Of a stretch of DNA of 54,481 bases, positions 453 through 48,272 are shown in pieces. The notes beneath the pieces are model-generated. The model was not told the origin of the DNA. It saw nothing but the letters and a program-made list of their open reading frames with translations, and made no database searches. The DNA comes from Nocardia sp. BSTN01 (GTDB lineage: Bacteria > Actinomycetota > Actinomycetes > Mycobacteriales > Mycobacteriaceae), in contig NZ_JADKYP010000047.1 of the NCBI RefSeq assembly GCF_015354405.1, forward strand, positions 1 through 54,481, read 5' to 3'. Positions within the stretch are counted from its first letter, which is position 1, and every line of letters starts with the position of its first letter. A program made the translations under genes and the position numbers.

Positions 453-470
453 ATTCCCAACAGTGGGAAT
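453..470. promoter_or_regulatory. inverted repeat TTCCC-N6-GGGAA, site 1
   Basis: Perfect inverted repeat with 6-base arms ATTCCC and GGGAAT around AACAGT. It lies 88 bases before the ATG at 558 and about 100 bases from the divergent minus-strand ATG at 352. The same arrangement recurs upstream of other secretion genes in this window. Its role as an operator is inferred from recurrence and position. Confidence 0.6.
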
Positions 471-557
471 CCCCGAGAATGAGGGGGAGATCGGACCCAC
501 GGCAGGACGGGGATCGCGGGATGACTGGCACCTACTGCTGGCCGGGCAGGTGATCGC

Positions 558-1097
558 ATGGGCCTCGGTAACTTTTTCAAAGGTGTCGGGAACTTCGTTT
601 CCGACCACATCGGCGATATCGCCGTCGGTGTCGCGACCGGGGTCGGTTTCGCGCTGGGTGGGCCCATCGGCGCCGGGCTGGTCGGGGCTGCTGCCGGGGC
701 GCTGCAGTCAGGCTTCGATGACGGGTGGAGTTGGAAGAACGTCGGAGCCGGTGCTGCTTTCGGTGCGGTCGGGGGCCTGCTGGGTGGCGGGGTGAGCGGT
801 GGTGCGGGTGTGAAGGGGCTGTTGTTCGCCGGCAAGTCGTTGGTGAAGGCGAATGCGCTGGGGGATGCCGAGAAGGCGGCGCTGGCCGTCGGTAAGAAGG
901 GGCTGTTCAGAAATACGATCCCGACCCAGCTCGGCGGCGCCCACCTGAAATCGTCCCGAACCTATATGGGGATTCTGGGTGCAGCGACCGGTCCGTCGAC
1001 CGCGCGGCAGATGTGGGATCAAGCCCACCCGAAGAAGTTCGGCGACGTGCCCACCATCGACATAATGAGCAAAAACGAGCTCGCGGCCAATGCCTGA
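558..1097 (+). CDS. Gly-rich (glycine-zipper) ESX-associated protein, first copy
   Basis: 179-residue protein of unknown function. Residues about 15-95 are a glycine/alanine-rich stretch with many GxxxG spacings (GVATGVGFALGGPIGAGLVG), typical of membrane-inserting or tightly packing helices, followed by a charged C-terminal half ending SKNELAANA. No signal peptide is obvious. It is the first gene of a tightly packed operon that continues to about 11321, and its stop overlaps the next start by 8 bases. The pair it forms with the next gene recurs at 2803-5389, where the first gene is also Gly-rich and begins with a similar zipper segment. Its place upstream of ESX accessory genes suggests a secreted or membrane accessory protein. 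A pore-forming or pre-toxin-like role is possible but unproven. Confidence 0.75.
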   Translation: MGLGNFFKGVGNFVSDHIGDIAVGVATGVGFALGGPIGAGLVGAAAGALQSGFDDGWSWKNVGAGAAFGAVGGLLGGGVSGGAGVKGLLFAGKSLVKANALGDAEKAALAVGKKGLFRNTIPTQLGGAHLKSSRTYMGILGAATGPSTARQMWDQAHPKKFGDVPTIDIMSKNELAANA

Positions 1098-2793
1098 CAT
1101 GCCGCATATTCTGATGCCCGACCCGCGGAACCTGCCTGACGGGCTGGTTCTCAACAAGGCTGTCGAAATGCGGTACCGCGCCCTCGTCAAGATGTATCAA
1201 ATGAGTTGGGACAGCCTCGGAAACGGGAAGGCATCCGAGGTGCCCGAAACGCTTCCGGTAGGGAAGATCACGGGTGCGGAAAAAGCGCGGATCGCGAACT
1301 ATCAGGAGTGGGTGGATACCCTCGACGCCTACTATGAAGGACTGTCGGACAACGATCGCATCATCGTGGGTATTCCGGATAAGGCAGGGGGCTTGTGTGA
1401 CGAGGGCCGCGCGGGTCTGCGGACATTGATCGGAAAGCTGAACGAACTGGCAAAGGTCAATCCGAAAGATGTCGAATATCTTGGCCAATTGCTGCAAGAC
1501 CGGGAGTTGGACGCGAGCATCGCATCCGATGGAGGAGAAATCACCGAAGACAAATACGTCATGACAGTCGTTCTCACCACGACCACGATGGCGACTGCGG
1601 CGATGCAGGATCTGAGTAATCAATTTCAGGCGCTCGCCGGGGAGATCCCGCCACCGGCCCAGCAAACGCCTGCGCCGAAAGACGCGCCGTCTACGAAGCA
1701 GGCGCCCACGAATACAACCGGTACGGACGGAGTTTCGCCTTACTCCGGTCCATATGTGGGATCTGTCGGTGACTCCACGTCCGCGGATTCGCCGGCGGCT
1801 CCGCCGGTGTGGAATTGGGACTCCGGTAGTGCCCCGAGTTCGTCCTTCGTCACCTCGGCGGGGTCGCCGAGCGGTCTCGCCGCGCGGTCGAGCGACAGTG
1901 CTGCTACGGAGGACCCATCCAGCGACAGGCAGGCCGACAACCCGACCTCGACCGTCGGAACCGCCGCCCCGGCCGGAACCTCGCCGGCGACTGCGACACC
2001 CGGTTTCTCGCCCGCCAATTACGCGTTGCCGCTGGCGATGCGGGGACTGGCCGATATGGCCGACGCCCGCCGAGCCGCCGGGAATGCGATGCCGGAGAAC
2101 CGAGGCCCGACGTCGACCCGAGCGGTGTCCGGCGCGGCGAGCGCGCCCGCCTCCGAGCTGCGCGCAGCGTCTGCCGGGACGCCGTCGACGGCTACCCGGA
2201 GTGGCCCGACGTCGCAGAATTCCACTTCGGCCACGTCGTCCCAGGCCGGTACACCACCTCCGTCCAACCAGGCCGGTTCGCCGTCGGCCCAGTCGAGACC
2301 GGGTCCGGCGGCGGTGACGCCGGTGTCCGCGTCACGGCCGGCCGACGGTGTGATGGTCTACACGTTCCCCGACGGACGAAGCCAGGTCGTATCGCCCGTG
2401 GTGGCCCAGGCGTTGGATGTCGCGTTCGGCAACGCCGCAGGAACGGATGCGCGGCACGCCTACGAGAAGACCGCGGCGAAACTGCCCGACGGCAAGGAGA
2501 TCGGCGATCCGGTGGATCCCAGCCGGTTGATCACCGGCGACATCGCCACGTGGGATCAGCGGACCGCGTTGGTGGTCGCTTTCGGTGATGACGGCAATAC
2601 ATCTCTGGAGGTGATCATCCAAGGTGAGTTGAAGCAGTTCGACGCTCACATGAGCGATAAGCAAGGTGACTTCGGCGGATTCGCCGGCTTTGCCCATCCC
2701 GCCGGCATAGAAGCGACCAGCGATTCGCAACCACCCGCACCGGCGATCCCCGTCGACTACTCGGCCGGCGGGCAGGTGTCGGTACCGGCATAG
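1090..2793 (+). CDS. Pro/Ser-rich ESX-associated protein with VSPVV...FAHPAGIE C-terminal domain, copy 1
   Basis: 567 residues in three parts. Residues about 1-190 form a mostly helical N-terminal region. About 190-415 is a Pro/Ser/Ala/Thr-rich, probably unstructured linker. About 419-545 is a compact C-terminal domain with the motifs VSPVVAQALD, DPSRLITGDIATWD, ALVVAFG, GELKQFDAHMSD and FAHPAGIE. The same domain ends the protein at 3671-5389, so the genes are paralogues. The TGD..W...VVAFG segment recalls the second half of an NlpC/P60 fold, but there is no DCSG catalytic cysteine, so any such relation would be to an inactive form. The start overlaps the previous stop; an ATG at 1099 is an alternative. 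Function unknown; probably an ESX substrate or accessory factor by context. Confidence 0.8.
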   Translation: MPDMPHILMPDPRNLPDGLVLNKAVEMRYRALVKMYQMSWDSLGNGKASEVPETLPVGKITGAEKARIANYQEWVDTLDAYYEGLSDNDRIIVGIPDKAGGLCDEGRAGLRTLIGKLNELAKVNPKDVEYLGQLLQDRELDASIASDGGEITEDKYVMTVVLTTTTMATAAMQDLSNQFQALAGEIPPPAQQTPAPKDAPSTKQAPTNTTGTDGVSPYSGPYVGSVGDSTSADSPAAPPVWNWDSGSAPSSSFVTSAGSPSGLAARSSDSAATEDPSSDRQADNPTSTVGTAAPAGTSPATATPGFSPANYALPLAMRGLADMADARRAAGNAMPENRGPTSTRAVSGAASAPASELRAASAGTPSTATRSGPTSQNSTSATSSQAGTPPPSNQAGSPSAQSRPGPAAVTPVSASRPADGVMVYTFPDGRSQVVSPVVAQALDVAFGNAAGTDARHAYEKTAAKLPDGKEIGDPVDPSRLITGDIATWDQRTALVVAFGDDGNTSLEVIIQGELKQFDAHMSDKQGDFGGFAGFAHPAGIEATSDSQPPAPAIPVDYSAGGQVSVPA

Positions 2794-2802
2794 GAGATTC
2801 GT

Positions 2803-3681
2803 ATGAGCTTGATGGGTCTGGCGGCAAACCTCGCCGTGACTGCCGTCGTGAGTCGAGTGGCTCCCGGCCTGGGTGGGTCGGTGGTCGCGGGCTTCGCCGG
2901 CGGAGCGACCGAGTCGTTGGTCGAGGGGGATACCAACGTGGGCGACGTGATGAAGTCGGGCGGCTACGGTGCCGCGGGCAGCCTGATCGGCGACGGGGTG
3001 GGGCGCGGTCTCGGAGCCGCGGCGCGGTTCGGCGCCAAGGGGACCGAGTCTGCTCTCGGGAAGGCGACGGCGTTGTCGGCCGACGCATCCAAGGCCGCCG
3101 GCGAGTGGAAGACTGCCGATGACGCACTCGAGGCAGCCAGAAACAAACTCGCCAATACGAACAGAGCGAATATTCCGGGCCGGCGGAGCGCTCAGAAAGC
3201 GGTGCAGACAGCGGAGACGGACGCAGCCGCTGCACAGAAGAAATGGGAGGACGCCCAGATAAAGGCCGACGACCCGGGATTCTCGGTCTCCAAAATGCAG
3301 CAGCGCAAGAAGATCCTGGACCGCGCGGGAAAGGAACTTCGGGGCGGCAAAGGGCGGGCCAAGCAGCCTGGATTCCGGCAAGGGGGTTGGGGCAACACCG
3401 GTTTGCGATCCCTGGGCGCGACGATCGGGTCCAACACTGCGGGAGGGCGGAGCGGGGGATCGTCCTCATCCGACAGCGGGGGCGGAGACAAGACCCCGAA
3501 ACCGAAACCGACGGCTCAGAATGTCGAACTCATGTGGGGCGGCAAGCAATATATGGACTCGCCCCCGAAAGAGCCTATCGTGCAGGATCCGAGCTATCAG
3601 GTGGCGATCGAAAGTCCCACCGGGTTTCTGCTCTATCCGAAGGGCTTGAACGACCAGATACGGCGCTGGTATGTCGGATGA
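2803..3681 (+). CDS. Gly-rich ESX-associated protein, second copy
   Basis: 292 residues. The N-terminal 100 residues are small-residue-rich (VAPGLGGSVVAGFAGGATES, then GYGAAGSLIGDGVGRGLGAA). Residues about 100-190 are Ala/Lys/Glu/Asp-rich, probably coiled coil (TALSADASKAAGEWKTADDA, AVQTAETDAAAAQKKWEDAQ). A basic Gly/Ser-rich stretch follows, and the C-terminus ends NDQIRRWYVG. It occupies the same place in its gene pair as the 558-1097 protein, although the sequences are only broadly alike. AGGAG at 2792-2796 precedes the ATG at a good distance. The stop overlaps the start of the following gene. No known family recognised. Confidence 0.75.
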   Translation: MSLMGLAANLAVTAVVSRVAPGLGGSVVAGFAGGATESLVEGDTNVGDVMKSGGYGAAGSLIGDGVGRGLGAAARFGAKGTESALGKATALSADASKAAGEWKTADDALEAARNKLANTNRANIPGRRSAQKAVQTAETDAAAAQKKWEDAQIKADDPGFSVSKMQQRKKILDRAGKELRGGKGRAKQPGFRQGGWGNTGLRSLGATIGSNTAGGRSGGSSSSDSGGGDKTPKPKPTAQNVELMWGGKQYMDSPPKEPIVQDPSYQVAIESPTGFLLYPKGLNDQIRRWYVG

Positions 3682-5389
3682 AACGAAAACCGCTCTGTCG
3701 CTGGCACAAGCGCTGGGCACGAACGCGAATCTCTTCGGTGAGCCCGAGAAGGGTAAGCCGGTGGCGGTGGTGAAAACACCGACGCTGAAGCCGCAGATGC
3801 TCCAAAAAATGCAGGGTCAGTCGGAATTGGCAACTCAATACCGTAACGCTGTGGGCAGCATGAATACGAAGGCTGCGAGCTGGGATGTTTCGCTGGCGAA
3901 GGTAGGTGCGAAGGTCGACGACGTAAAGAAGACGTCCGCGGACGGACTCGAACAGCTCGGGAACCTGGTCAAGGGCATCAATTACAACGTTGCGTCGATC
4001 TCCTCGCTCGAGGAAGGTCAGGTATTGGAGATCGAATTCATCGACATGATGGACCAGGCGTACTCCGAACTGACCGACTCGGTGGAGTCGGCTGCCGGAC
4101 AGAACGAGGCCGCCGCCGATGCCATCAAATCCTGGGCGGCGGATTTCGAGAAGGGGCAGCAGCAGCACGATGCCGCCATTCAGTCGCAACTGGACAGCGC
4201 ATTGGCGAAGCTCAATGCCGGTGGGAACGGCGGCGATGCGGGCAATGGCTCCGGCTTGAACCTCGGTGCCGACAGCGGGCTGGAGAACTTGGGCAAGGAC
4301 ACCACCATCGACCCCGATACCGGACTGCCGACCGACAACACCTCTACGGCCGACGACGCCAAATCGAAGATCGACGATGCGATTCAGCAGATCAAGGACT
4401 CGGCGATGTCACCGACCTCGTCGATGGCAAGTCCGGTCGAATCACCTTCGCTGGGTTCGGGTTTGGGGGGAATGATGGATCCGACGGGCATGGGGGGAAT
4501 GGGGATGAACCCGTACATGAATCCGTACGGGATGGGCATGGGCATGGATCCTTACGGATCGCTCACAGACTCGCTGCGCAACCGTGGCGACGATCTGGAT
4601 CCGAATCGGATCGATCGGGCGGTGCAGCCGCTGGCACAGGCGCAGCCACAGCAACCCGCGCCGTCGACGCCGTGGTCGAATCAGAACAACGCCGCGCCGG
4701 TGTCGAATACCGCCGGCGGTCCGCCTCCGAACGCGACGTCCTCGCAGCCGGGCGGGACCACGCCGCCGCCGCGGGTGCCGGGTTCGGACGGCATGATCGA
4801 ATACGCCTTCCCGCCCGACTTCCAGCGGAAGCAGAAGGTGTCGCCGGTCGTCGCCCAGGCGCTGGACGCGGCCTTCGCCAATACCAAGGGCACGGACGCC
4901 AAGGCGGCCTATTCCGGCACCACGGCGAAGTGGTCGGACAACAAGCAGGTCGGCGCGCGGATCGATCCGAGCCAGTTGATGACCGGCGATGTCGCGCTGT
5001 GGGACAAGGACCACGCGGCGATCGTCGTCGCCTTCGGATCCGGTGATCCGGCCACCGCCGCCGCCGCGAATTTCACCGGTGCCGCGAGTTTCACCGGTGT
5101 GTCGGGCGGTTCCGGTGATCCCTCGGCCGGCTCGGGCGACACCTCGGCCGGTTCGGGTGACGGCAGTGATGCGCTGCAGGTGGTCGTCTGCGGTGAGCTG
5201 AAGCGGTTCGATGCGCACATGTCCGATGTGGGTGGCGATTTCGGCGACTTCAGCGGGTTCGCGCATCCGGCCGGTATCGAGGGCACGGGCGCCGCGCACG
5301 GTGACGCCATGCCCGCGGTGCCCGCACCGGGTGATCCGTCCGCCGGCGGTCCGACGATGTCGGCACTGGCCGGCACTCAGACGATCTGA
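3671..5389 (+). CDS. linker-rich ESX-associated protein with VSPVV...FAHPAGIE C-terminal domain, copy 2
   Basis: 572 residues. Residues about 1-185 are an extended helical region (QSELATQYRNAVGSMNTKAA; QAYSELTDSVESAAGQNEAA), like the helical bundles of ESX substrates. A Gly/Met/Pro linker follows (GMGGMGMNPYMNPYGMGMGM). Residues about 372-538 are the same C-terminal domain as in the 1090-2793 protein: VSPVVAQALDAAF, DPSQLMTGDVALWD, GELKRFDAHMSD, FAHPAGIEG. Inside that domain this copy carries an extra stretch of about 37 residues with GSGDxSAGSGD repeats, just before the GELK strand. It overlaps the preceding gene by 11 bases, consistent with translational coupling. Function unknown. Confidence 0.8.
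   Translation: MSDETKTALSLAQALGTNANLFGEPEKGKPVAVVKTPTLKPQMLQKMQGQSELATQYRNAVGSMNTKAASWDVSLAKVGAKVDDVKKTSADGLEQLGNLVKGINYNVASISSLEEGQVLEIEFIDMMDQAYSELTDSVESAAGQNEAAADAIKSWAADFEKGQQQHDAAIQSQLDSALAKLNAGGNGGDAGNGSGLNLGADSGLENLGKDTTIDPDTGLPTDNTSTADDAKSKIDDAIQQIKDSAMSPTSSMASPVESPSLGSGLGGMMDPTGMGGMGMNPYMNPYGMGMGMDPYGSLTDSLRNRGDDLDPNRIDRAVQPLAQAQPQQPAPSTPWSNQNNAAPVSNTAGGPPPNATSSQPGGTTPPPRVPGSDGMIEYAFPPDFQRKQKVSPVVAQALDAAFANTKGTDAKAAYSGTTAKWSDNKQVGARIDPSQLMTGDVALWDKDHAAIVVAFGSGDPATAAAANFTGAASFTGVSGGSGDPSAGSGDTSAGSGDGSDALQVVVCGELKRFDAHMSDVGGDFGDFSGFAHPAGIEGTGAAHGDAMPAVPAPGDPSAGGPTMSALAGTQTI
5103..5170 (+). repeat. short in-frame GSGDxSAGSGD repeat inside the C-terminal domain
   Basis: Repeated ggttccggtgatccctcggc-like units encode GGSGDPSAGSGDTSAGSGDG. 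The paralogous domain ending at 2793 has no such insertion, so this is a low-complexity expansion in the second copy only, most likely a surface loop. Confidence 0.6.
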
Positions 5390-5418
5390 CGGCCGGAGGG
5401 TGAGAGGAGGTCGTAGCG

Positions 5419-6915
5419 TTGAATGTTGATCCGACGGAACTGATTTCGGCGGCATCGTCGCTGGCCGATATGGCGCAGAACAGTGGCGGCACCCTGCCCA
5501 GGGGCTGGGTGGTCCCCGCCGGAGCGGATCCGATTTCCGCGCAAGCGGTGCCGCAGCTGAACGGCAGTGCGCAGGATCTGTACAACGGTGTGCTCGGGGC
5601 GTTGAACGAGGTGCATCGCACCGCCTGGAACATCGGCGCCGCCGCGGTGGACTACACCGAGGCCGACGAACAGGCCGGGCGCGATATCGGCGGCGCGGGT
5701 TCGGACATGCTGACCAACCCGGTGGGCGAGACTCCGCCGCACACACCGCGGTTCGCGCCGACCTTCCGATTGCCGGCCGTCGGCGCGGAGGTCGATCCGC
5801 TGACCTTCGCCCAGCAGTTGCATACCGGCCCGGGGCCGGGAGGCGCGGCTCGCTTCGCCGAAAACGTGCGGAACTACCTGTCGACCACGCATGCCGATGC
5901 CACCAGCGGTCTGGATCAGGCCGCGCTGCGCATGCAGCACTGGACACCGGTGGGATCGGCGGCAGCACAGCAACTCTCGAAACACCGCAGCTGGCTCGAC
6001 CAGCTCGGATCCGCGCTGGGGGATCTGGCGGACAACGCCCAGAACTACGCCGACGCCTTCACCGCGGCGAAGGCCAAACATCCCACGCCCCAGGAGATCA
6101 TCGCCGCCCGCAAAGAACTGGTCTCGGCGATGCGCTCGAAGAACGAACTCGGCGTGCAGGATGCGCTGGCGAAGTTCCAGGAACAGAACGCGCGCTCGGC
6201 CCAGACGGTCACCGACTACTCCACGGCGGTGAACTCGAAGACTCCCTCGAAAGGGTCGGAAACCTCGGGCTCGCAGAGTGATTCGAGCGGTAGCGACATG
6301 AGCATGCTGGCCCAGATGCTGCCCACGATGATGAGCTCGCTGATGCAGGGCGGGATGATGTCGCAGCTGGGCCAGGGCGGCAGCACGGACTCGCTCGACG
6401 GGCTCGACGGCTCCGATTACGACTACGACTACGGCAGCTACCCCGACTACGGTTCCGCCGGTGGCGGTTACGGAGGCGGTGGCGCGATGCCGATCGGGGA
6501 CATCACCAGCGGGCTGGACAGCGGCTCCACGAGCACACCGACCGTCAGCGTCGGCCCGATGCCGATGGTGGCGTCCGCGTCCATGGCCGGGACCGCGGCG
6601 AGCAGTGCGTCGAATATGCCTCGCACACCGGTGATCGAGCCGCTGTCCTCCTCGGCGGCCGCGGCGGCCCGCGGCGCCGCCGGTGGGTCGCCGATGATGC
6701 CGTACATGCCGATGGCGCCCGGTATGGGCGGTGGCGGCGGCGGCAACGAACGCAACCGGGTCGTGGCATGGCATCCCGATCGGCTGATGTACGTCGACGA
6801 CACCCCGCACACCGAGCAGGTCATCGGTGAGAAGCCGACCATCGCACCGACCGTCACACCCCCGACGCCGTCACCCGCCAACCAGACCCCGAGTCAATCC
6901 GGAGGTAGCGCATGA
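5419..6915 (+). CDS. espB: EspB-like PE/PPE-fused ESX substrate
   Basis: 498 residues. Residues about 1-95 are PE-like (DPTELISAASSLADMAQ; PISAQAVPQLNGSAQDL) and end with the secretion signal Y79-T-E-A-D83 (YxxxD). Residues about 115-275 are PPE-like: FAENVRNYL, then W175-TPVG (the WxG-type turn), then KHRSWLDQL and a KHPTPQEIIAARKEL stretch matching the HPTYEDIV region of mycobacterial EspB as I remember it. The C-terminus is Gly/Met-rich and ends with a conserved tail (YVDDTPHTEQVIGEKP) like EspB's C-terminal TEDRAWTEAVIG. EspB is a secreted ESX-1 substrate cleaved by MycP1 that forms oligomeric rings. The start is a TTG after GAGAGGAGG; no better in-frame start exists. The espL-like gene follows directly, as in ESX-1. 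Confidence 0.85.
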   Translation: MNVDPTELISAASSLADMAQNSGGTLPRGWVVPAGADPISAQAVPQLNGSAQDLYNGVLGALNEVHRTAWNIGAAAVDYTEADEQAGRDIGGAGSDMLTNPVGETPPHTPRFAPTFRLPAVGAEVDPLTFAQQLHTGPGPGGAARFAENVRNYLSTTHADATSGLDQAALRMQHWTPVGSAAAQQLSKHRSWLDQLGSALGDLADNAQNYADAFTAAKAKHPTPQEIIAARKELVSAMRSKNELGVQDALAKFQEQNARSAQTVTDYSTAVNSKTPSKGSETSGSQSDSSGSDMSMLAQMLPTMMSSLMQGGMMSQLGQGGSTDSLDGLDGSDYDYDYGSYPDYGSAGGGYGGGGAMPIGDITSGLDSGSTSTPTVSVGPMPMVASASMAGTAASSASNMPRTPVIEPLSSSAAAAARGAAGGSPMMPYMPMAPGMGGGGGGNERNRVVAWHPDRLMYVDDTPHTEQVIGEKPTIAPTVTPPTPSPANQTPSQSGGSA

Positions 6916-7256
6916 GTGGAATCCATCCCGACGTCCAAGCGGCTTTGGACGCCGCCCGCGAATTACGCCACAAGATCGCCGATCTGCGGGAACGTATCGA
7001 CGCGATCCGAGCGCGGCGCCCGTCGCCGAGCGGTGCCGTCATACCCGAGGTGGATGCGATGGGGCGGCTGACCGACTTGTACCTGGCACCCGGCACGGTC
7101 GACCGGTTCGAGGCAGATGAACTGGTCGCCGAGATCATGTCCGCCATCCGCGAGAGTTCGGCCGACGCCGGACGCCAGTACCAGGTGATCATGGATGCCG
7201 AGCCGTCGCCCGAGACCGAGGGTGTCGGTGGGCAACCGGTGGAGCAGCTGTCGTGA
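6912..7256 (+). CDS. espL: EspL-like, YbaB/EbfC-type small protein
   Basis: 114 residues. An N-terminal helix (VQAALDAARELRHKIADLRE) is followed by a short beta segment containing GRLTDLYLAPGTVDR and a C-terminal helix (LVAEIMSAIRESSADAGRQY). That helix-strands-helix layout is that of the YbaB/EbfC nucleoid-associated family, to which EspL (Rv3880c, next to espB in ESX-1) belongs. EspL is thought to stabilise ESX-1 substrates and influence expression. The ATG overlaps the espB-like stop (ATGA), and the stop overlaps the next GTG, so the three genes are translationally coupled. Assignment rests on fold pattern and position; sequence identity to EspL looks low. Confidence 0.65.
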   Translation: MSGIHPDVQAALDAARELRHKIADLRERIDAIRARRPSPSGAVIPEVDAMGRLTDLYLAPGTVDRFEADELVAEIMSAIRESSADAGRQYQVIMDAEPSPETEGVGGQPVEQLS

Positions 7257-8020
7257 CCGAACCCGCGGCGGTCACCGTCGCCGACACCGTGCGCTGGCTG
7301 CACGAGGAGGGCCTCGTGCGGCTGGCGGGGGTGGGCGAGCGCAGTTTGCACCCGATCGCGGCGTTCACCATCGACGTGGCGACCGGAATGGTGGGAGCTC
7401 ATCCGGCTTCGGGCGCCAGCTCCGACGTGAGCACCTTCGCCGCCGACGATCTGCCCCATCCGGTCGGTTCGCCGAAGCGGCTCGTGATCGTCGGTGTCAC
7501 CACCTCCGAGGCGATGCTGGTGGTGGATCTCGCTGCGGCCCTGACTATTTCGATCAACGCCGATCAGCCCGAGGCGGCCGCCCGGTCGTGGGTTCTGCAA
7601 CTGCTGCTGAATCCGGAGATCACCATCTCCACCAACAGTGCCGAGGTGGCGATCGGTAACAGTCCACGCTGCCGCCGCTCGTTCATCCCGGGCGGCGGCG
7701 CGACGATCATCAATATCGACGATATGAATCCGCCGCTGACCACGGTGACGCTCAACGGAGCGGAGGGCCCGGACCATCTGGACGTCGAACCCGACGGGAC
7801 CGGGGAGATGTATCTGGGCTCGCGATTCTGGTCGCTGCGCCAGGTGATGACGGTCGGCGACGCGGCCTGGAGCGAGTTGGTCGACCGGATGTCGGGAACC
7901 GGAGAATCACCGGCGGGTTCGAACGAACCACCGCCGGCCGCGAGCGTCGCGCCACCCGTCGGCGCCGGCGCACCACCGCCGCGAGGAGCGCTCGCCCCTG
8001 AACTTTCGGAGGGCCGATGA
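7253..8020 (+). CDS. ESX-associated protein of unknown function
   Basis: 255 residues, unrecognised. The protein is mixed alpha/beta with alternating hydrophobic stretches (KRLVIVGVTTSEAMLVVDLA; ALTISINADQPEAAARSWVL), an EITISTNSAEVAIG segment and a Pro/Ala-rich tail after about residue 215. No transmembrane helix, signal peptide or catalytic motif is visible. It begins with a GTG overlapping the EspL-like stop (GTGA) and is followed by the EspH-like gene after a 76-base gap. Being wedged between EspL- and EspH-like genes suggests a cytosolic ESX partner or chaperone. It does not match EspJ or EspG as I remember them. Confidence 0.75.
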   Translation: MTEPAAVTVADTVRWLHEEGLVRLAGVGERSLHPIAAFTIDVATGMVGAHPASGASSDVSTFAADDLPHPVGSPKRLVIVGVTTSEAMLVVDLAAALTISINADQPEAAARSWVLQLLLNPEITISTNSAEVAIGNSPRCRRSFIPGGGATIINIDDMNPPLTTVTLNGAEGPDHLDVEPDGTGEMYLGSRFWSLRQVMTVGDAAWSELVDRMSGTGESPAGSNEPPPAASVAPPVGAGAPPPRGALAPELSEGR

Positions 8021-11321: not shown

Positions 11322-11458
11322 GCGCCAGGGAGCGGTGGACCGTAGCCGGTCGAATGCCGTGCGCGCCCAGAACTTCCCTGCGCTGGGAACAGCGCCCGGC
11401 AGTGGGGATTGTCCAGCGCCGACAATGATCTCGTCAGTGGCGGAAAGGATTGTGCGGC
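11322..11458 (+). promoter_or_regulatory. intergenic leader of the second espK-like gene
   Basis: This region contains the inverted repeat at 11374-11389 and, at 11416-11458, a 43-base leader that differs at only four positions from the leader of the minus-strand gene starting at 14817. The leader carries GCCGACAATGAT and the ribosome site GGAAAGGA. Confidence 0.55.
11374..11389. promoter_or_regulatory. inverted repeat TTCCC-N6-GGGAA, site 2
   Basis: Arms TTCCC and GGGAA around TGCGCT, 70 bases before the ATG at 11459. Second member of the repeat family described at 453-470. A degenerate right half (CAGTGGGGA) follows about 15 bases later. Confidence 0.55.
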
Positions 11459-13390
11459 ATGCCGGAGATGGAGATCGACCCTGCGGTGCTGCGTCAACTG
11501 GCAGAGCAACACCGTCAGGTCGCGCGCGAAACCCGGGAATGGGCGCAACCGCCGTACGATTGGCTCGCCAGCTTCATCCCCACGTACGGCAAGATCGCCC
11601 AGCCGGTCAAGGATGCCCTCGACGACTACTACGACGCCCGCAAACGAGCGGGTGACAAGCTGGCGGACGACCACGACCACACCGCGGATCAGTTGATCGC
11701 CGCGGCCGAGTCCTATGAAAACGCCGACCACGGCATCGCATCGGATTTCCGCCGAGCGGGCGACGAGATCGGCGGGCACGGGTCACCGCAGGGAACACCG
11801 GCGCACGCTGCGCCGAACGGCCACACCTTCGGCCCCGGCGACGGCCGCACGCCGGCGGGTATCTCGCCCCTCGGCACGTCGCCGCTCGACGGCGGTCCTT
11901 CGGTCACCGGTCCGCAGACGCCGGGCGCCGGTCAGCAACACCCGGACGCGGCGGACCAATCGCCGGGCGCGACCGTCCCCGGCGTCGCCGCCGCCGCACC
12001 GGGAGCTGCCGCACCGATGGGCGCCGTGGACTCCACAGGCACCCAGGCCGGGTCCGGTTCCGGCGTCAACACCGGTGCGGCGGCCGCCGCCGCGGGTACC
12101 CCGGTCGGTGGAGTGGCGACGCCGGCCACCGTCGGCGCGGGCGTGGGTGCCGACGACCGATCGGCGCAGCAGCCGCCGACCGGCGCCACGGGACGCTACG
12201 ACATGCCGCCGGTACCGGTCGTCACGCCGTTCGCCGCCGCGGTGGCCGCGGCCAAGGACAAGGAGGCCGAGCCGGCCTACGTGGTGGGCGATGCGGTCGA
12301 CAACGACCTCCTGGTCGCGCGCACCTTGCTGGCGGCGGTGCTGGCCGCCGCGGATACGCCGGCGGTGGGAATGCACTGGGCGGTCGGCGTGATGCGCGGC
12401 CCGGCCGGGGCGGGGGTGTTCATCACCTCGAACGAGGGACGGGGCTGGTTGCCGGCGGGGATCTATCTCCCTCGGGAGGTGTCGACGCCGTGGCTGTGGG
12501 ACCAGATGCTCGACGACGGCTCAGGCCGTGCCGCCTCGCCCTGGGAGGGGATCTCGGACCCGGCCCGCGTGCTGGTCGAATTCGGGTTGGCATGGGGCCC
12601 GAAGGCGAACGCATCGCTGGTGGCCCTGGCCTCGTCCGCCTCGATCGACGGTGAGTTGCGGGCACGGTTCTCCGATATCGCGATGGCGGACCTGGTCGGC
12701 CCGGCCTACGACGTCGATCTCCGGGTACACACCCCGGACACGGTCGATCGCCTCGAACTGGCCGGATCGCCGGAAGCCGCCGGTCCCATTGCGGCAGTAT
12801 CGGATTCACGCGCGTACGCCCGCTGCCTCGAGTTGGTGACCGACGCCCACACCAAGCTGGTGCGCAGCGGGACGGCCGCGGCCGATTCCGCCGAGTCCCG
12901 TCGCATCCGCGATCGCATCCTCGCCGTTCTGGAGGCCGGGCAGGAGGTGTCGCCGCAATGGTGGGAACAACTACGCGAGGCCGACGACCTGCTCGCGGCG
13001 GCAATGCTTTCGCGGCGCGTGGACGTCGCCCGGGTGGCGCCGGGTGACCTTCGCATCGACGAGGAGGGAGCGACGTTACGTGCCATGGTCTTCGAACGTC
13101 GCTGCAACGAACTCCTGCTGGTGCTCGCCGGTGAACCCGGTCGGCAACAATTGCGCGACGCGGCTTACGCCTACGACCAGATCGTGAATCATCCGCAGTT
13201 CGTGGAGGTTCCGGCCGCGGTCACGGCCGCCGAGCCTACGACGGTGGACCGCCCGGTCACCGTGTCCGGGCCGGTATCGGCTCCGAGCGTCGCCGCCGGT
13301 CCGCCGCGCGGGGCGGCGGTCGTGCCGCCGGTGGTGGCGCCGCCGGTGGTGGCGCCGCCGGTGGTCACCCCACCGTCCGAGCAGTCGTAG
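11459..13390 (+). CDS. EspK-like ESX protein, copy 2, with EspC-like N-terminus
   Basis: 643 residues. Residues about 1-100 resemble EspC-type type VII targets: DPAVLRQLAEQHRQVA, a long helical hairpin, then Y86-E-N-A-D90, a textbook YxxxD signal. About 105-270 is an Ala/Pro/Gly/Thr linker. About 274-590 is the EspK-type domain shared with the 8784-11321 protein (TSNEGRGWLPAGIYLPREVS, TPWLW, FGLAWGPKA). The tail is a VVAPP repeat. ATG 11459 is preferred over the upstream TTG at 11450 because GGAAAGGA lies about 10 bases before it and the paralogous leader at 14817 supports it. It has its own promoter region. Likely a secreted or secretion-coupled protein; the combination of EspC-like signal and EspK-like domain is unusual. 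Confidence 0.75.
   Translation: MPEMEIDPAVLRQLAEQHRQVARETREWAQPPYDWLASFIPTYGKIAQPVKDALDDYYDARKRAGDKLADDHDHTADQLIAAAESYENADHGIASDFRRAGDEIGGHGSPQGTPAHAAPNGHTFGPGDGRTPAGISPLGTSPLDGGPSVTGPQTPGAGQQHPDAADQSPGATVPGVAAAAPGAAAPMGAVDSTGTQAGSGSGVNTGAAAAAAGTPVGGVATPATVGAGVGADDRSAQQPPTGATGRYDMPPVPVVTPFAAAVAAAKDKEAEPAYVVGDAVDNDLLVARTLLAAVLAAADTPAVGMHWAVGVMRGPAGAGVFITSNEGRGWLPAGIYLPREVSTPWLWDQMLDDGSGRAASPWEGISDPARVLVEFGLAWGPKANASLVALASSASIDGELRARFSDIAMADLVGPAYDVDLRVHTPDTVDRLELAGSPEAAGPIAAVSDSRAYARCLELVTDAHTKLVRSGTAAADSAESRRIRDRILAVLEAGQEVSPQWWEQLREADDLLAAAMLSRRVDVARVAPGDLRIDEEGATLRAMVFERRCNELLLVLAGEPGRQQLRDAAYAYDQIVNHPQFVEVPAAVTAAEPTTVDRPVTVSGPVSAPSVAAGPPRGAAVVPPVVAPPVVAPPVVTPPSEQS
13327..13372 (+). repeat. 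short coding tandem repeat (VVAPP units)
   Basis: Three consecutive 15-base units of the type gtggtggcgccgccg near the 3' end of the EspK-like gene encode VVAPPVVAPPVVTPP. Simple low-complexity coding repeat. Confidence 0.7.
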
Positions 13391-14817: not shown

Positions 14818-14858
14818 GCCCGACAATCCTTTCCGCCACCGACGACATCATTGTCGGC

Positions 14859-14878
14859 GCTTCCCGCAAATGGGAAGC
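14859..14878. promoter_or_regulatory. inverted repeat GCTTCCC-N6-GGGAAGC, site 3
   Basis: Perfect 7-base arms GCTTCCC and GGGAAGC around GCAAAT. It lies between divergent genes, 42 bases from the minus-strand ATG at 14817 and 140 bases from the plus-strand ATG at 15018, so it could act on both. Confidence 0.6.
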
Positions 14879-15017: not shown

Positions 15018-15989
15018 ATGGCGCCTGATCTGACCACCGATCTCAACGGGGTGCTGAACTCACTGCTCGGGCTGTACGGCCAGGGCAGTCCCGCACCGGG
15101 TACGGCCGGCACGGTCTCGACCACCGTCGCGAATATCGACAACAGCCACAACGGCTCCATCGCCCGCCACTACAGTGACGCCCGCGGCATGCAGGTATCG
15201 ATCGCCGAGTCCCAGGCAGGCAAGGACGCGGTCGTGCACAAGGCGGTCGCCGCCGCCGGCGACGGCACGGTCACCGGACGCAATGCGCTCAACAATCGGA
15301 TCGCCGACCTGCAATCGCGGCTGCAAGCCATCGCGGGGGTCGGCGATCTGCGGTTCAGCGGTCCGGCACTGTTGAACGCCGCGCACGCCACCATCGCCGA
15401 CGCGACCAAACAGGTGGATGCCGATGTGGCCGCGGCGCACCGCCACGCGGCGACGATCCAGCCGCCGTCCGCCCCGGCTCCGGTCCACCGGCGGATCACG
15501 CCCGCAGGCCGCAGCCGGCGTCGCTCCCGGATACGAACCCGGGCCGGTGGGGGCGGTGGTGGTGCACTCCCGAGCGCGGTGCGCAGTCGTCCGGTTCCGT
15601 CGGACGGCACCGCCGGCGGTAAGGCGGTGAGTGCGGCGAGCGCCTGGCTGGGCACGCCCTACGTATGGGGCGGTGGTGGCGCCGGCGGGCCGAGCGGCGG
15701 CGGCTTCGACTGTTCGGGGCTGACCCAGTACGCGGTCGCGGAAGCGACCGACGGCCGAGTTCACTTGCCGCGCACGACATATGAGCAGATCTACTGTGGG
15801 GAGCGGATTTCGCCTCGCGATGTGCGGCCGGGTGATCTGGTCTTCCCGGCCGATTCGTTCTCCGCGCGCGGGCCCGAGCACGTGCAGCTCGCCGCCGGGA
15901 ACGGGATGGTGATCGAGGCGCCGTACTCGGGTGCGACCGTACGGTGGGCGAAAATGCCCAGTGAAGCCGTCGTCGTCCGCGTCATGTGA
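15018..15989 (+). CDS. NlpC/P60-family peptidoglycan endopeptidase (C40)
   Basis: 323 residues. Residues about 1-150 are a helical N-terminal domain (NNRIADLQSRLQAIAGVGDL), possibly the DUF4226-type domain found in some mycobacterial C40 peptidases. A basic Arg-rich linker follows at about 155-185. Residues about 205-323 form an NlpC/P60 domain with catalytic Cys232 in GGGFDCSGLTQY and His288 in GPEHVQLAAG, plus WLGTPYVWGGGG and RPGDLVF motifs. Such enzymes cut D-Glu to meso-diaminopimelate bonds in peptidoglycan. No classical signal peptide is present, so export may be by the ESX system or indirect. It lies next to the secretion core and may open cell wall for the apparatus; that role is inference. 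A strong hairpin follows the stop. Confidence 0.85.
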   Translation: MAPDLTTDLNGVLNSLLGLYGQGSPAPGTAGTVSTTVANIDNSHNGSIARHYSDARGMQVSIAESQAGKDAVVHKAVAAAGDGTVTGRNALNNRIADLQSRLQAIAGVGDLRFSGPALLNAAHATIADATKQVDADVAAAHRHAATIQPPSAPAPVHRRITPAGRSRRRSRIRTRAGGGGGGALPSAVRSRPVPSDGTAGGKAVSAASAWLGTPYVWGGGGAGGPSGGGFDCSGLTQYAVAEATDGRVHLPRTTYEQIYCGERISPRDVRPGDLVFPADSFSARGPEHVQLAAGNGMVIEAPYSGATVRWAKMPSEAVVVRVM

Positions 15990-16355: not shown

Positions 16356-16371
16356 TTCCCAAGAATGGGAA
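16356..16371. promoter_or_regulatory. inverted repeat TTCCC-N6-GGGAA, site 4
   Basis: Arms TTCCC and GGGAA around AAGAAT, 71 bases before the eccA start. Its position relative to the start matches the other members of the family. Confidence 0.6.
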
Positions 16372-16442
16372 TAGCGCTCCCACGGCTGGCGGCCTGGGTG
16401 TCTATCGTTCGGGCAGGCGAGTGCGGCGGAAGGGATGTCCAG

Positions 16443-26453: not shown

Positions 26454-26456
26454 GCA

Positions 26457-27326: not shown

Positions 27327-27357
27327 ATTCGCAGCGGGTTTCGAGAAGGATGAGGAT

Positions 27358-32107: not shown

Positions 32108-33852
32108 GTTTTCCCAGGATCGGAGCCGGCGCGCCCGAGCGCGGACCGCTGGCGGCGGTGGTGATCGTCGGAAGCGTCGCGGTGGCGGGCCTGTTGGGCC
32201 GGATGCCGTGGTGGGTCGCACCGGCGGCGGCGACGGTCGTGGCGATCACCCTCACGGTGCGTGTCGGCGAGCGAACCGCGGTGCGCTGGCTGCTCGACTG
32301 GTGTGACTATCGCTTCGGCCGGCAGGCCCGCCAGGAGCTGCTGCATCGGCGGGCACGATTACGCGACGTCGAGGTGGCTGCGGGCGTCTGCGGGGTCCGG
32401 GAGGACGGATCGTCGTATGTGGCGATGGTCCAGCTCGCGCCGAATCTGGATCTGCCGACCGTCATCGCCGAGCGGGAGCTCTATACCGAGGACACCGTCC
32501 CGGTGCAGGATCTGCTGCCGATGCTCGACCAGTTCGGGGTCCGGATCGAGATCGACATCGTCACGACCGGTCAGCGGGTGCGCCCGGCCGGCAGCTACAG
32601 CATGCTCTACGACCAGCTGATCGGCCCGCACCCGGTGGTCGGCGACCGCATGACCTGGCTGGTGCTGCGGTTGGATCCGGAGCACAACCTCGAGGCCCTC
32701 GTGCGGCGAGGGCCGGTGGCGGAGTCCGCTCCCCGGGCGCTGGCCTCGGCCGCCCATCGCATCGCCGGTCGCCTGCGGGAACGCGGGATGGCGGCGCACG
32801 CGCTGCCCGCCGAAGCGTTGGGTGATGCGATCCGCCTGCTACACGCCGGTGTGGAATTGACCGATCTGCGGGAGACGTGGCATCACCTCGAATCCTCGGT
32901 GCCGGGACGTAGTGTCACCAGTTACCTGATCGACTGGACCCGGCTCGGCGACGCAGGCCTGGACGACTGCTGGTCGTGGCACCGCGGGCGCACCACGGTG
33001 GTGGTCAGCCTGGCCGGTGGCGCGCTGGGCGCTCGCGGCCTGGTGCGTTACGTGGGCCCGGCATCCTCGGTCGCCCCGCCGGGATATCTGCGACCGCTGG
33101 GCGGGCGGCAGGCCGAGGCGTTGCGCGCGAGTCTGCCCACATCGACCTCGGTCCATCGCATTCCGCGCACCGAATCCGGAGGCGACTCGGCGACTCCCGA
33201 GCAACTGGACGCATTGACCATCGCGATCGGTCCGAGCGGTCAGATCCTCGGTTCGATCAGCGGCAGGCCCAAGCACACGCTGGCGTTGCCGCTGTTCGAC
33301 CCGGTGCGATACAACCCGCGTCACCGCACGATCGATGTCTACGCCGATCTTCCGGTCGCCCAGCAGATCGTGCTGCGAGCGATGGTCGTCGGCGCGGATG
33401 TGGAAGTGCACTCGGCCCGGCCGCAGCGCTGGCAGCAACTCGTCACAGCGGTGGGCGATCCGGATTCGCTACGGCTGGCGCCCGACGCCTCCGACGCCGA
33501 GCAGGCCCCGGCGGCTGCCGCACAGGCGACCATCGCGGTCTTCGACCAGATACCTCCGCGCGCCTCGGCCGCGCATACGACGGTGACCATCAGCGAACCC
33601 GGCGCACCCCGTCGGCGGTCTGCCGATCTGGCGATCGACCAGGTCAGCGAGACCGCCATCGACGTCAGCATTCCGATGCGGACGGTGCGCGTGGATCTGA
33701 TCGAGCCGCGAGGTGAAACCAGATATCTGGACTCCATGGGCAATCCACCGGCAGCCGGACCTCCGGCGATCACGGTGGCAGGTGGCGGATCGATGCCGCC
33801 GGCAGGTCCGGCTCATGTGGTCGACGCCGAATCGGACGAGGTGAGACGGTAG
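32104..33852 (+). CDS. eccE: EccE, type VII secretion membrane component
   Basis: 582 residues. Two adjacent N-terminal transmembrane helices (LAAVVIVGSVAVAGLLGRMP, then WWVAPAAATVVAITLTV) are followed by a cytosolic or peripheral domain with WLLDWCDYRFGR and YSMLYDQLIGPHPVVGDRMT, then a variable Ala/Pro/Ser tail after about residue 460. EccE sits on the outer edge of the EccBCDE complex. The GTG start overlaps the mycP stop (GTGA), and the stop overlaps the GTG of the following regulator gene, so the regulator may be co-translated with the secretion core. Confidence 0.9.
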   Translation: MSFPRIGAGAPERGPLAAVVIVGSVAVAGLLGRMPWWVAPAAATVVAITLTVRVGERTAVRWLLDWCDYRFGRQARQELLHRRARLRDVEVAAGVCGVREDGSSYVAMVQLAPNLDLPTVIAERELYTEDTVPVQDLLPMLDQFGVRIEIDIVTTGQRVRPAGSYSMLYDQLIGPHPVVGDRMTWLVLRLDPEHNLEALVRRGPVAESAPRALASAAHRIAGRLRERGMAAHALPAEALGDAIRLLHAGVELTDLRETWHHLESSVPGRSVTSYLIDWTRLGDAGLDDCWSWHRGRTTVVVSLAGGALGARGLVRYVGPASSVAPPGYLRPLGGRQAEALRASLPTSTSVHRIPRTESGGDSATPEQLDALTIAIGPSGQILGSISGRPKHTLALPLFDPVRYNPRHRTIDVYADLPVAQQIVLRAMVVGADVEVHSARPQRWQQLVTAVGDPDSLRLAPDASDAEQAPAAAAQATIAVFDQIPPRASAAHTTVTISEPGAPRRRSADLAIDQVSETAIDVSIPMRTVRVDLIEPRGETRYLDSMGNPPAAGPPAITVAGGGSMPPAGPAHVVDAESDEVRR

Positions 33853-34271
33853 TGTTGATCAACGTGGTAGCGGACTCCGCAGCGGACGGCAGGCAATCTT
33901 CTGATCGAGACCCACAGAGCAGACACCAGAATGGAGGCGAGTTCGGGGTGCTCGATCCCGAGCGTCGTGAGTCCGGCGCCGATGAGCAACTGACACCGCG
34001 GCAAGCGGCGGCGGCGATCTTCTCGGCCAGATTGTCGGAGCTGATCGCCGAATCGGTGGTATCCACCGAGGACGGCTCGACCCGTTCGCTGACGTTGTAT
34101 TCGCTGGCCCAGCATCTCGAGCTGGCCTATCCGGATGTTCCGGTGTCGCAGTCGGGTCTGTACCGGCTGGTGCACGGCGAAGCGATTCCCCGGCTCGATC
34201 TGATCATCGCCCTGGCCCGTGTCTTCGATGTGCCGCCGGAGTATTTCGTGGCGGCCGAATCCGGCCGCTGA
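33852..34271 (+). CDS. EspR-like/XRE-type DNA-binding regulator
   Basis: 139 residues. The first 50 are charged and probably flexible. Residues about 55-139 match the N-terminal half of EspR: FSARLSELI, a helix with LYSLAQHLEL, VSQSGLYRLVHGEA as recognition helix, then LDLIIALARVFDVPPEYF, equivalent to ALANFFRIKAAYF in EspR. EspR is a nucleoid-type regulator of ESX-1 accessory genes in M. tuberculosis. The GTG overlaps the eccE stop (TAGTG) after GAGGTGAG; a GTG at 33948 with GGAGG ten bases upstream is an alternative giving 107 residues. Being the last gene of the operon suggests autoregulation of the secretion locus. Confidence 0.75.
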   Translation: MLINVVADSAADGRQSSDRDPQSRHQNGGEFGVLDPERRESGADEQLTPRQAAAAIFSARLSELIAESVVSTEDGSTRSLTLYSLAQHLELAYPDVPVSQSGLYRLVHGEAIPRLDLIIALARVFDVPPEYFVAAESGR

Positions 34272-34348
34272 TTCCGCCGGACCGAACTTCTCTCCAGCGG
34301 GAATAGGCTTGGCGCGGACTGTATTCCGGTCCCGATACCATCGCACAC

Positions 34349-35425
34349 ATGTCCGACAAGGACCCCGCAGACGTCTTCGTGCGCCATCGTGGCGCGGTCC
34401 TGGACGCGTTGCTGTCGGAGCCGGGTTTGTCCACCGCCTCCGCAGCCGCCGACCGCCTCGGCGTCGCTGATCCGGTGTCGGTCGGAGTGTCCGTCCCGCC
34501 GGCGGAATCCGCCCCGGACCGATCGGACCGATCGTCTCGTCCTGCGGCCAACGGCGCCGCCCGGCCGCCGAGCGGACCCAAGGCCAGCGACCGGATCATG
34601 GCGCTGCTGAACGGCGAATCCCTGGACGGACCGTCGGGCCTGGAATTCACCTCCGATTTCGCCGATCGGGCCGGCGCCCGGCTCGATCGGACAGGCGCGG
34701 CCGAAGCGAAACCCGTTGCGGGCGAACCGGAGAAGCCGGCACAGCCGGAGAAGGCGGAGAAGGCGGCCCCGGCGGGCGCCGCCGCGCCGGCGCAGCAGCT
34801 GCTCGCTATGGTGCGCAAGCCGAAGGTGGCGATCGCGCTGGCCGGTGTGCTGGCGATCATCGTCGTGCTGGCGCTGGTCACCACCGGCGGTAAGAAGGAC
34901 GGCGGAGACCAGGTCAAGGTCGTGACGGCGGCCGCGGCGGCACCGCCTAGCGCCGCACCCAAACCGTCCGAATCGCTGACCGCCGGCACGGCGATCCAGG
35001 TGAAGGCGGCCGAATCCCATTGTCCCACCGGCAGTACGCCCGGTATGGACGCTTTCTCGGGTCAGGCGGACAAGGCGTGGTCGTGTGTGCGCGCCTATCG
35101 GGTGGACGGTCAGGTACTGACCATCGATCTGGGCAAGACCTATCGGATCGACTCCATCGGTATCGTGCCCGGCTGGGACAGCATAGGCTCCGACGGCGCC
35201 GACCAGTGGGCCAAGTTCCGGACCGTGAGCCGCGTGTCCTATCGGTTCAACGATCCGGGCGTGACCACCTACACCCAGCAGACGATGGATCAGCGGAGCC
35301 TCGTGGTAACCACGATCAGTCCACCGGTCACCGCGTCGAAGATCACGCTGACGATCCTGGAATCGAAGGGTGACGCCTCGATCAACACCACCGCCATCTC
35401 CTCGATTGTCGTCACCGGCCAATGA
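34349..35425 (+). CDS. membrane protein with discoidin/NADase-type C-terminal domain
   Basis: 358 residues. The cytosolic N-terminus is about 155 residues, charged and Pro/Ala-rich, with an ASDRIMALLNGE segment. One transmembrane helix lies at about 159-180 (VAIALAGVLAIIVVLALVTT). The extracytoplasmic part ends in a beta-rich domain (about 220-358) with DKAWSCVRAYRVDGQVLTID, YRIDSIGIVPGWD and KITLTILESKGD, the pattern of discoidin/F5-8C-like 'NADase-type glycan-binding' domains. Such proteins usually sit near zinc-ribbon membrane proteins, as here: the next gene overlaps it by 4 bases. A surface-binding role is inferred. A weak copy of the GGGAA repeat (TTCTC-N6-GGGAA at 34288-34303) precedes it. 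Confidence 0.75.
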   Translation: MSDKDPADVFVRHRGAVLDALLSEPGLSTASAAADRLGVADPVSVGVSVPPAESAPDRSDRSSRPAANGAARPPSGPKASDRIMALLNGESLDGPSGLEFTSDFADRAGARLDRTGAAEAKPVAGEPEKPAQPEKAEKAAPAGAAAPAQQLLAMVRKPKVAIALAGVLAIIVVLALVTTGGKKDGGDQVKVVTAAAAAPPSAAPKPSESLTAGTAIQVKAAESHCPTGSTPGMDAFSGQADKAWSCVRAYRVDGQVLTIDLGKTYRIDSIGIVPGWDSIGSDGADQWAKFRTVSRVSYRFNDPGVTTYTQQTMDQRSLVVTTISPPVTASKITLTILESKGDASINTTAISSIVVTGQ

Positions 35426-42901: not shown

Positions 42902-47009
<4,108 letters not shown>

Positions 47010-47381: not shown

Positions 47382-47498
47382 GCACAGCAGAATAGGTCCG
47401 CTACCCCCGCGGATCGCAATCGAACCGCCAAAGATGGGAACCGGCATGCCGCCGCACGCTTTCGATCCGCGCATGTTTCGGTGTGGTTTCCTTGATGT

Positions 47499-48233
47499 AT
47501 GACGACCCGGACCGAGTACACCATCGACGAGCTCGCGCGTGAGGCGGGGACCACCGTGCGCAGCCTGCGGGTGTACCACGAGCGCGGTGTGCTGCCGCCG
47601 CCGCAGGTCAAGGGCCGTACCGGCTTCTACAGCGCCGAACACCTCAACCGGGTGCGGACGATCAGCCGGTTGCTCGACCGTGGCATCAAGCTCAACGGCA
47701 TCAAGGAACTGCTCAACGCCTGGGATCGTGGTGACGATCTCGGCGACATCCTCGGCGTCGCGGAGCCCGATGTGTCGTCGGGCGCCGAATCGCCGGCCGG
47801 TGCGACGATCGCCGCGACCGATCTGGCGCAGCGGCTGCACGAGGTGCCCAATGGGCTGGCCCGGGTAGTCGCGCTCGGCCTCTACGAACCGGTCGACGCC
47901 AGCACTTACCGCGCCGCCGATCCGATGCTGCTGCAGGCCGCCGACCGGCTGGCCGCCGCGGGCGTGCCGGAGCCGGAGATCATCGCCGAATTGGAGCGGC
48001 TCGCGACCGAATGCGACCGGATCGCGCGTCGCTTCGCGGACCTGTTCCAGCGCACGGTGTGGACCGGCTTCCAGGATTCCGCGGGCACACCCGCGGACGT
48101 GGCCGGGCTGGCCGCGGGTTCGGAGGTGATCCGGACCGTCCCGGCGCAGGCGGGCGCCGAACTGATCGGCCGTTTCGTGGCCCGATATCTCGATCAGGAC
48201 AGCGCGCTGAACGAAGCGCTCGCCGACTCCTGA
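47499..48233 (+). CDS. MerR-family transcriptional regulator
   Basis: 244 residues. The N-terminal winged-helix domain reads YTIDELAREAGTTVRSLRVY, then HERGVLPPPQVKGRTGFYSA, HLNRVRTISRLLDRGIKLNG and IKELLNAW. The C-terminal effector region (about 85-244) is helical and carries no cysteine pair or other metal-binding pattern, so an organic ligand or protein input is more likely than a metal. Divergent from the DUF1707 gene, which may be its target. MerR proteins usually twist an overlong promoter spacer; no clear operator was found in the 117-base gap. Confidence 0.88.
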   Translation: MTTRTEYTIDELAREAGTTVRSLRVYHERGVLPPPQVKGRTGFYSAEHLNRVRTISRLLDRGIKLNGIKELLNAWDRGDDLGDILGVAEPDVSSGAESPAGATIAATDLAQRLHEVPNGLARVVALGLYEPVDASTYRAADPMLLQAADRLAAAGVPEPEIIAELERLATECDRIARRFADLFQRTVWTGFQDSAGTPADVAGLAAGSEVIRTVPAQAGAELIGRFVARYLDQDSALNEALADS

Positions 48234-48256
48234 GCGTTCTTCGCGACAATCTCTTC

Positions 48257-48272
48257 CCCCCAACACTGGGAA
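48257..48272. promoter_or_regulatory. inverted repeat CCCCC-N6-GGGAA, site 7
   Basis: Right arm GGGAA and core CCCAACACTGGG are conserved; the left arm has two mismatches to TTCCC. 104 bases before the ATG at 48376 and only 12 bases before the CCGTT-N4-RACGG site, so both repeat families meet here. Confidence 0.45.

Follow-up and report, generated by a model that had tools for sequence, protein, structure and literature searches.

In Mycobacterium tuberculosis, the ESX-1-associated, nucleoid-associated protein EspR has the consensus TTTGC[TC][GA], one of its footprints holds inverted copies of this sequence 16 bp apart, and 59% of the motif occurrences lie inside open reading frames (ORFs) (PMC3315491). 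In Mycobacterium marinum, EspM and WhiB6 likewise exert dedicated control of an ESX-1 system, with binding to the gap between espM and whiB6 (PMC7002343); the words palindrome, inverted repeat and motif are absent from the accessible text of that paper. An ESX-1-like cluster, ESX-1AN, is carried by some Nocardia including N. cyriacigeorgica (PMC4791881), and the accessible text on it contains 'regulat' once and 'EspR' not at all. Among open-licence papers, we found none on the control of type VII secretion in Nocardia. Here we describe a recurrent 16-bp palindrome, TTCCC-N6-GGGAA, in a 54,481-nt contig of Nocardia sp. BSTN01 (NZ_JADKYP010000047.1; hereafter the window), which carries a full ESX-1-like cluster, from eccA through eccE, as seen in Pfam scans of its ORFs. 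As a well-supported prediction from the sequence, the palindromes are operators of one regulon that comprises this cluster and pknG.

The ESX-1AN gene set is found in one locus of the window, with the genes in the order eccA, eccB, eccC, PE, PPE, WXG100-like, espG, espI-like, eccD, mycP and eccE, followed by genes for an HTH (helix-turn-helix) protein of the XRE type (hereafter XRE), an F5/8-type C domain protein, glutamate dehydrogenase (gdh) and PknG. The WXG100 match of the cluster is under the Pfam cut-off, and the espI-like gene is presumably so named, given its AAA_31 domain and position. The relatives of the window eccA include five N. cyriacigeorgica loci, and the closest named relatives are N. 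elegans, N. nova and N. vermiculata. Like XRE, EspR is a small HTH protein linked to ESX-1; XRE differs in lacking the C-terminal (dimerisation) domain, and its link to EspR runs through a homologue described below. The sites differ as well, those of EspR being TTTGC-type whereas the Nocardia site is a 16-bp palindrome placed mostly before starts. Control by an HTH factor at a palindrome is an already known kind of control. In the open-licence PMC papers that we searched, no such motif or regulon is described, in agreement with an earlier note on this DNA, made from the letters alone, that recognised no described motif of this kind for ESX control.

The palindrome and its conservation before start codons

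Exact copies of the palindrome lie at five positions of the window (454, 11374, 14861, 16356 and 44490), against a mean of 0.06 and a maximum of 1 in 100 dinucleotide shuffles. The whole genome holds 19 exact sites, and the window, 0.7% of the genome, contains these five. With one mismatch allowed, the window gave 8 matches versus 1.46 expected. The earlier note had listed seven sites; five of them are exact, the site at 23790 has one mismatch and the site at 48257 has two, and one more, at 34288, has been added. We consider 34288-34303 a real site because it lies before its gene in 21 of the 21 regions compared below. Another match with one mismatch and outside that list, at 19511 inside eccB (CTCCC arm), is probably due to chance. 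The distances from palindrome to start codon extend from ~34 to 141 bp, wider than the 40-105 bases first claimed, and comprise 34 and 141 bp on the two sides of the gap at 14861 and 59, 60 and 72 bp at other sites, besides those given in Table 1. This gap is the only clear divergent one, where two had been proposed.

The spacer of the palindrome is strictly kept. In 78 loci around eccA (75 from Nocardia and 3 from Mycobacterium, 1.50 Mb in total), the exact arms occur 187 times with a spacer of 6 and 0-7 times with each spacer of 2-5 or 7-15; the three Mycobacterium loci contain no exact copy. The window and 20 further regions, each up to 60 kb long (21 regions), hold 110 exact copies at spacer 6 versus 0-3 at other spacers, and permuted arms gave 0-5 copies per spacer, except for CTTCC-N8-GGAAG, whose 24 copies are nested in the same sites. 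The regulon idea depended on the motif being rarer inside genes than before starts, and this is the case: among the 110 sites, one falls within sequence that matches a protein of the window and 20 within crude ORF calls, which cover 79% of the sequence.

The site is conserved at orthologous promoters, which together with its placement before starts supports the single regulon proposed in the earlier note. Promoters were counted at up to one mismatch, in rows that are partly redundant, since the named loci include some of the fetched genomes. A site precedes eccA in all 75 Nocardia loci (62 exact, 13 with one mismatch) and in 96 of 96 rows of the combined set, gene 34349 in 21/21, the NlpC/P60 peptidase gene (nlpC) in 86/87, the leftward gene 14826(-) across the same gap in 7/7, and the accessory esp operon (558) in all four scored regions. 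It is found as well before the EspC-domain gene, which we take to be EspK-like (54/56), pknG (15/16) and PE (12/13), and in only 33 of 95 rows before eccB. The comparison genes are low: espI 0/8, g7253 0/26, gdh 1/16 and PPE 4/67. The merR gene has a site in 9 of 20 rows, only one of them exact, and is not counted as a member.

Across the 187 exact sites, a clear preference is seen only at positions 1 (A 112, G 56) and 6 (T 143) of the centre; the AACANT-like centre suggested earlier holds in part. Among matches with up to one mismatch, the proximal GGG is nearly always kept and the distal arm is more variable, making the promoter-proximal GGGAA the stricter arm. The conservation of arms and position with a varying centre points to a protein operator, and the palindrome is very probably an operator-like element of the form TTCCCR-N4-TGGGAA, at which binding is predicted. 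Being an inverted repeat, it could also act as DNA or RNA with no protein of its own, as a terminator, an attenuator or a member of a repeat family; we regard this as highly improbable, given that the site precedes promoter-like hexamers, has a variable centre, does not belong to a longer repeat unit common to the sites and, in one divergent gap, can serve the genes on either side.

Spacing between the palindrome and -10-like hexamers

The earlier note had not noticed that the palindrome stands at fixed distances from a -10-like hexamer of the form xAnnnT. Of 253 unique promoters, with eccB counted apart, 232 were scored, and the distances from the palindrome end to the hexamer fall into three descriptive classes of 4-6 bp (67 promoters), 21-24 bp (14) and 30-35 bp (148), with one outlier at 17 bp and two regex artefacts at 0. 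No hexamer was matched in 21 promoters, 18 of which belong to nlpC. The 33 eccB rows comprise 15 at 22 bp, 10 at 30-31 bp and 8 unscored. When the hexamer is taken as -12 to -7, the palindrome centres lie near -25, -42 and -52. Of the 54 rows for the EspC-domain gene, 46 have the short distance (4-5 bp) and six the long one (31-33 bp), N. nova relatives among the latter; the same GACAAT-type element is used in both classes, which argues that the two positions do the same job. Before gene 34349, the hexamer is so close to the ATG (Table 1) that a leaderless start is predicted.

These positions bear on the sign of control. Class II activators of the CRP type are centred at -41.5, and the 21-24 bp class, which places the palindrome centre near -42, is comparable; the Nocardia sites differ in that the majority are shifted upstream by one turn, with one class falling within the promoter itself. 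The -42 and -52 positions are one helical turn apart, which suggests direct contact with RNA polymerase and hence activation, so that activation is our better guess for the sign. A dyad centred near -25, as in MerR-type activation from within the -35/-10 spacer, is found in the short class only (67 of the 232 scored promoters). We did not retain MerR-type activation in the sense of the MerR family itself, which goes with a long promoter spacer of 19 bp, since the candidate factor is an HTH_3 protein and the MerR gene of the window does not track the sites.

Repression from the same operator by the same XRE is an unlikely alternative that nevertheless has evidence on its side. In this case, the protein would sit on the promoter at -25 and act through oligomers or loops from -42 and -52. 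One class does overlap the promoter, many HTH_3 proteins are repressors, and the genes of two XRE homologues are immediately preceded by palindromes, the pattern of autorepression. The palindrome lies upstream of the promoter, however, in 162 of the 232 scored promoters, at two positions separated by about a helical turn; such strict phasing fits polymerase contact better.

The XRE protein and the distribution of sites across genomes

XRE is the best candidate factor for the palindromes, and a likely one. It is the sole HTH gene of the window up to pknG among 38 ORFs scanned with Pfam; beyond pknG are a MerR gene (47499) and two LuxR genes (49657 and 51027). The HTH_3 match of the 139-residue protein ends at residue 132, 7 residues before the C-terminus. 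XRE itself had no match in a direct search of solved structures (PDB) or in NCBIfam, and a profile of its orthologs matched only 9sf2 among the structures (E 2e-4). A homologue in genome G012 (locus L208), 43% identical over 81 residues, matched the EspR structures over residues 11-137 of 167 (E 2e-10).

The homologues in G012 and in a second genome, G129, are 40-44% identical to XRE, and directly upstream of the homologue in G012 there are three GTTCA-N6-TGAAC palindromes (L208:8913-9096), also present in G129. This motif has the same 5-6-5 geometry; its arm was found by a scan in one genome and then recurred in the second. In genome G068, a second, diverged ESX cluster encodes a 239-residue protein with two copies of an XRE-type HTH after eccE (L207:9952-10668). 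That cluster has no exact TTCCC palindrome and two matches with one mismatch, and it contains five TCYCAC-N2-GTGGGA-like sites at up to one mismatch against 0.26 expected, a result weaker than it looks because the motif was picked from the same sequence. An espC-like gene has one of these sites 13 bp upstream of its first ATG, and a PE-like ORF has another 56 bp upstream. Since palindromes adjoin homologues in G012, G129 and G068 as well as XRE in a remnant locus of genome G075, there is a hint that the XRE family is tied to palindromes.

The excess of the motif goes with the Nocardia genomes that carry this cluster. Among 150 congeneric genomes, 95 have a strong XRE match and the other 55 include three with weak matches; exact sites averaged 15.4 per genome (7-29) in the former and 4.4 (0-11) in the latter (Mann-Whitney P ~1e-23, phylogeny uncorrected). 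All 94 genomes with this type of eccA are among the 95. A second eccA in the genome from which the window comes is 48% identical, and its contig (C1) contains no exact palindrome. In ten XRE-less genomes, a pknG homologue that is 68-75% identical stands beside the same MerR gene and lacks a site in the flanks fetched, against 15 of 16 with a site where the cluster is present. For pknG homologues of 30 genomes in all (29 without a strong XRE match, plus G075), the fetched flanks contain no exact site and one with a single mismatch; the homologues other than those ten may be paralogues.

It would be quite unlikely, in our judgement, for the operator to be real and its factor to be another regulator, either unlinked or for example one of the two LuxR proteins of the window, with XRE acting on other targets. 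XRE and the ESX cluster are nearly inseparable by presence, which makes the linkage weak evidence, and 226 exact sites (331 minus 105, or 11.3 each) lie outside the fetched regions in 20 XRE-positive genomes. On the other hand, palindromes of like geometry lie beside diverged XRE homologues, genomes without XRE have few sites, and the MerR gene does not track the sites. We rejected MerR as the factor: its gene is present in all 95 XRE-positive genomes and also in 18 of the other 55, which remain at background with 4.3 sites on average.

The sites outside the fetched regions exceed, per XRE-positive genome, the whole-genome count in genomes without XRE (11.3 versus 4.4), and a dispersed regulon is possible. 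In the window's genome, an unlinked exact site precedes an operon with an EspC-domain gene and a YbaB-like gene whose match is under the Pfam cut-off (L186:2484-7047); CACAAT follows the palindrome (L186:2484) at 31 bp, and this operon is probably a member of the regulon. The other remote sites of this genome (G000) include four inside ORFs and are not claimed as members. Of 23 remote sites in genome G149, 15 were fetched and most have no clear target; one lies ~67 bp upstream of a gene whose WXG100_2 match is under the Pfam cut-off (L215), one ~50 bp before an isochorismatase gene (L219) and one ~480 bp before kdpA (L221).

In G075, a one-contig genome and the extra XRE-positive one, the ESX cluster appears to have been lost around XRE, and XRE is kept with two flanking promoter palindromes (L184:9495-10196). 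XRE lies there between promoters of the PE type and the 34349 type, both with palindromes, and three sites flank it (one exact, two with one mismatch). The 19.9 kb fetched gave matches to merR, ribD and luxR genes but to none of the window's other cluster genes, and the best pknG match, 55% identical, is located elsewhere. The locus looks like a deletion remnant.

Proposed control of the ESX-1-like system

In the reading that we favour and think reasonably probable, the palindrome would be the operator of one homodimeric HTH regulator, most likely XRE, activating from -42 or -52. The dimer would recognise both 5-base arms, which are centred 11 bp (one helical turn) apart, and would regulate the accessory esp operon, the EspC-domain gene, the NlpC gap, eccA, gene 34349 and pknG, with PE and, in some species, eccB as re-entry promoters within the eccA series. 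In most of the scored promoters, the palindrome would have its centre ~42 or 52 bp upstream of the transcription start, and in the others ~25 bp upstream. XRE, encoded at the end of the eccA series, would close a positive loop. The motif, its conservation, its classes of spacing and its co-occurrence with the cluster and XRE are observed, whereas we infer which factor binds, its binding as a dimer, the transcription starts, the operon structure, and the sign and signal of the control. A wider version, possible though doubtful, is that an EspR-related single-domain HTH protein serves as a dedicated activator of the ESX-1-like system, its substrates and PknG from -25, -42 and -52. At -25, inside the promoter, XRE would act in a MerR-like way, and the site from which one dimer drives a given gene could differ between species, as at the EspC-domain gene.

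Several points weigh against activation by an XRE dimer. The hexamers were picked by eye from the same alignments, so that the spacing histogram is partly post hoc. The linkers of the long class have no consistent -35 (0-9% reach four of six positions versus 3-8% when shuffled); this says little on activation because many mycobacterial promoters lack a -35. Sites centred near -25 overlap with the promoter, which would be compatible with repression. Having no EspR-like C-terminal domain, XRE is assumed to dimerise, and its gene has no site of its own directly upstream (0/9). XRE and this eccA co-occur in all but one genome, so co-occurrence cannot single out XRE; the comparison of site counts takes no account of phylogeny, and the total of seven sites in G075 is near background. 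In G302, from another genus of the family, an XRE-bearing ESX locus contains, in 70 kb, no exact site and one with a single mismatch, and its core has no clear or significant substitute palindrome.

The features of the window are collected in Table 1. Two-mismatch matches in the window number 24 versus 22.3 by chance; therefore, the degenerate site at 48257 does not stand on its own. We did not accept it as a full member: it has two mismatches, and of 12 rows compared for gene 48358, two lack upstream sequence and the 10 scored contain a site at up to one mismatch only in G124 (0 mismatches) and G142 (1 mismatch). The promoter counts gave 2/7 for this gene. Before the same gene, we noticed a second inverted repeat at 48289-48309, GTGCCGTT-N4-AACGGTAC, which is partly common to several relatives and more constant than the palindrome at 48257; it is probably an operator of a different regulator.

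Table 1. Palindromes, -10-like hexamers and genes of the window, by position
Feature	Position	Strand	Remark
Palindrome, exact	454..469	+	88 bp before accessory esp operon (558)
-10-like GAGAAT	475..480	+	5 bp after palindrome 454, short class; 4/4 unique at 5 bp
Accessory esp operon	558..8020	+	EspB/PPE-domain gene and YbaB-like gene within
Palindrome, exact	11374..11389	+	before EspC-domain gene
-10-like GACAAT	11421..11426	+	31 bp after palindrome 11374, long class
EspC-domain gene	11450..13390	+	Pfam
-10-like GACAAT, leftward gene	14850..14855	-	5 bp from palindrome 14861; 5/5 unique at 5 bp
Palindrome, exact	14861..14876	.	divergent gap, 14826(-) / NlpC/P60 gene 15018(+)
-10-like CATAGT, NlpC/P60 gene	14911..14916	+	34 bp from palindrome 14861
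NlpC/P60 peptidase gene	15018..15989	+	
Palindrome, exact	16356..16371	+	before eccA
-10-like TATCGT of eccA	16403..16408	+	31 bp after palindrome 16356
eccA	16443..18197	+	EccA1 N-terminal domain and AAA; inferred start
eccB to eccE series	18201..33852	+	includes gene 25689, without any family
Palindrome, one mismatch, TTCCCAACATTGGGGA	23790..23805	+	before PE
-10-like TAGCGT of PE	23811..23816	+	5 bp after palindrome 23790; 12/12 rows at 5 bp
XRE	33852..34271	+	139-residue HTH protein, Pfam HTH_3; overlaps eccE end; candidate factor
Palindrome, one mismatch, TTCTC arm	34288..34303	+	~45 bp before gene 34349; absent from earlier list
-10-like TACCAT	34336..34341	+	7 bp before ATG 34349
F5/8-type C domain protein gene	34349..35425	+	
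Palindrome, exact	44490..44505	+	before pknG, ~74 bp to ATG 44580
-10-like GAGAAT of pknG	44537..44542	+	31 bp after palindrome 44490
pknG	44580..47009	+	ATG at 44580, start taken from sequence
Degenerate palindrome, two mismatches, CCCCCAACACTGGGAA	48257..48272	+	before 48358; doubtful

If true, the proposed control would give the ESX-1-like system in Nocardia a defined operator, a candidate factor and a list of targets. The serine/threonine kinase PknG and type VII secretion would be joined in a single regulon, and an EspR relative would be a palindrome-specific switch, not a nucleoid protein. The natural variation in operator position provides a ready set for testing the action of one factor from different distances.

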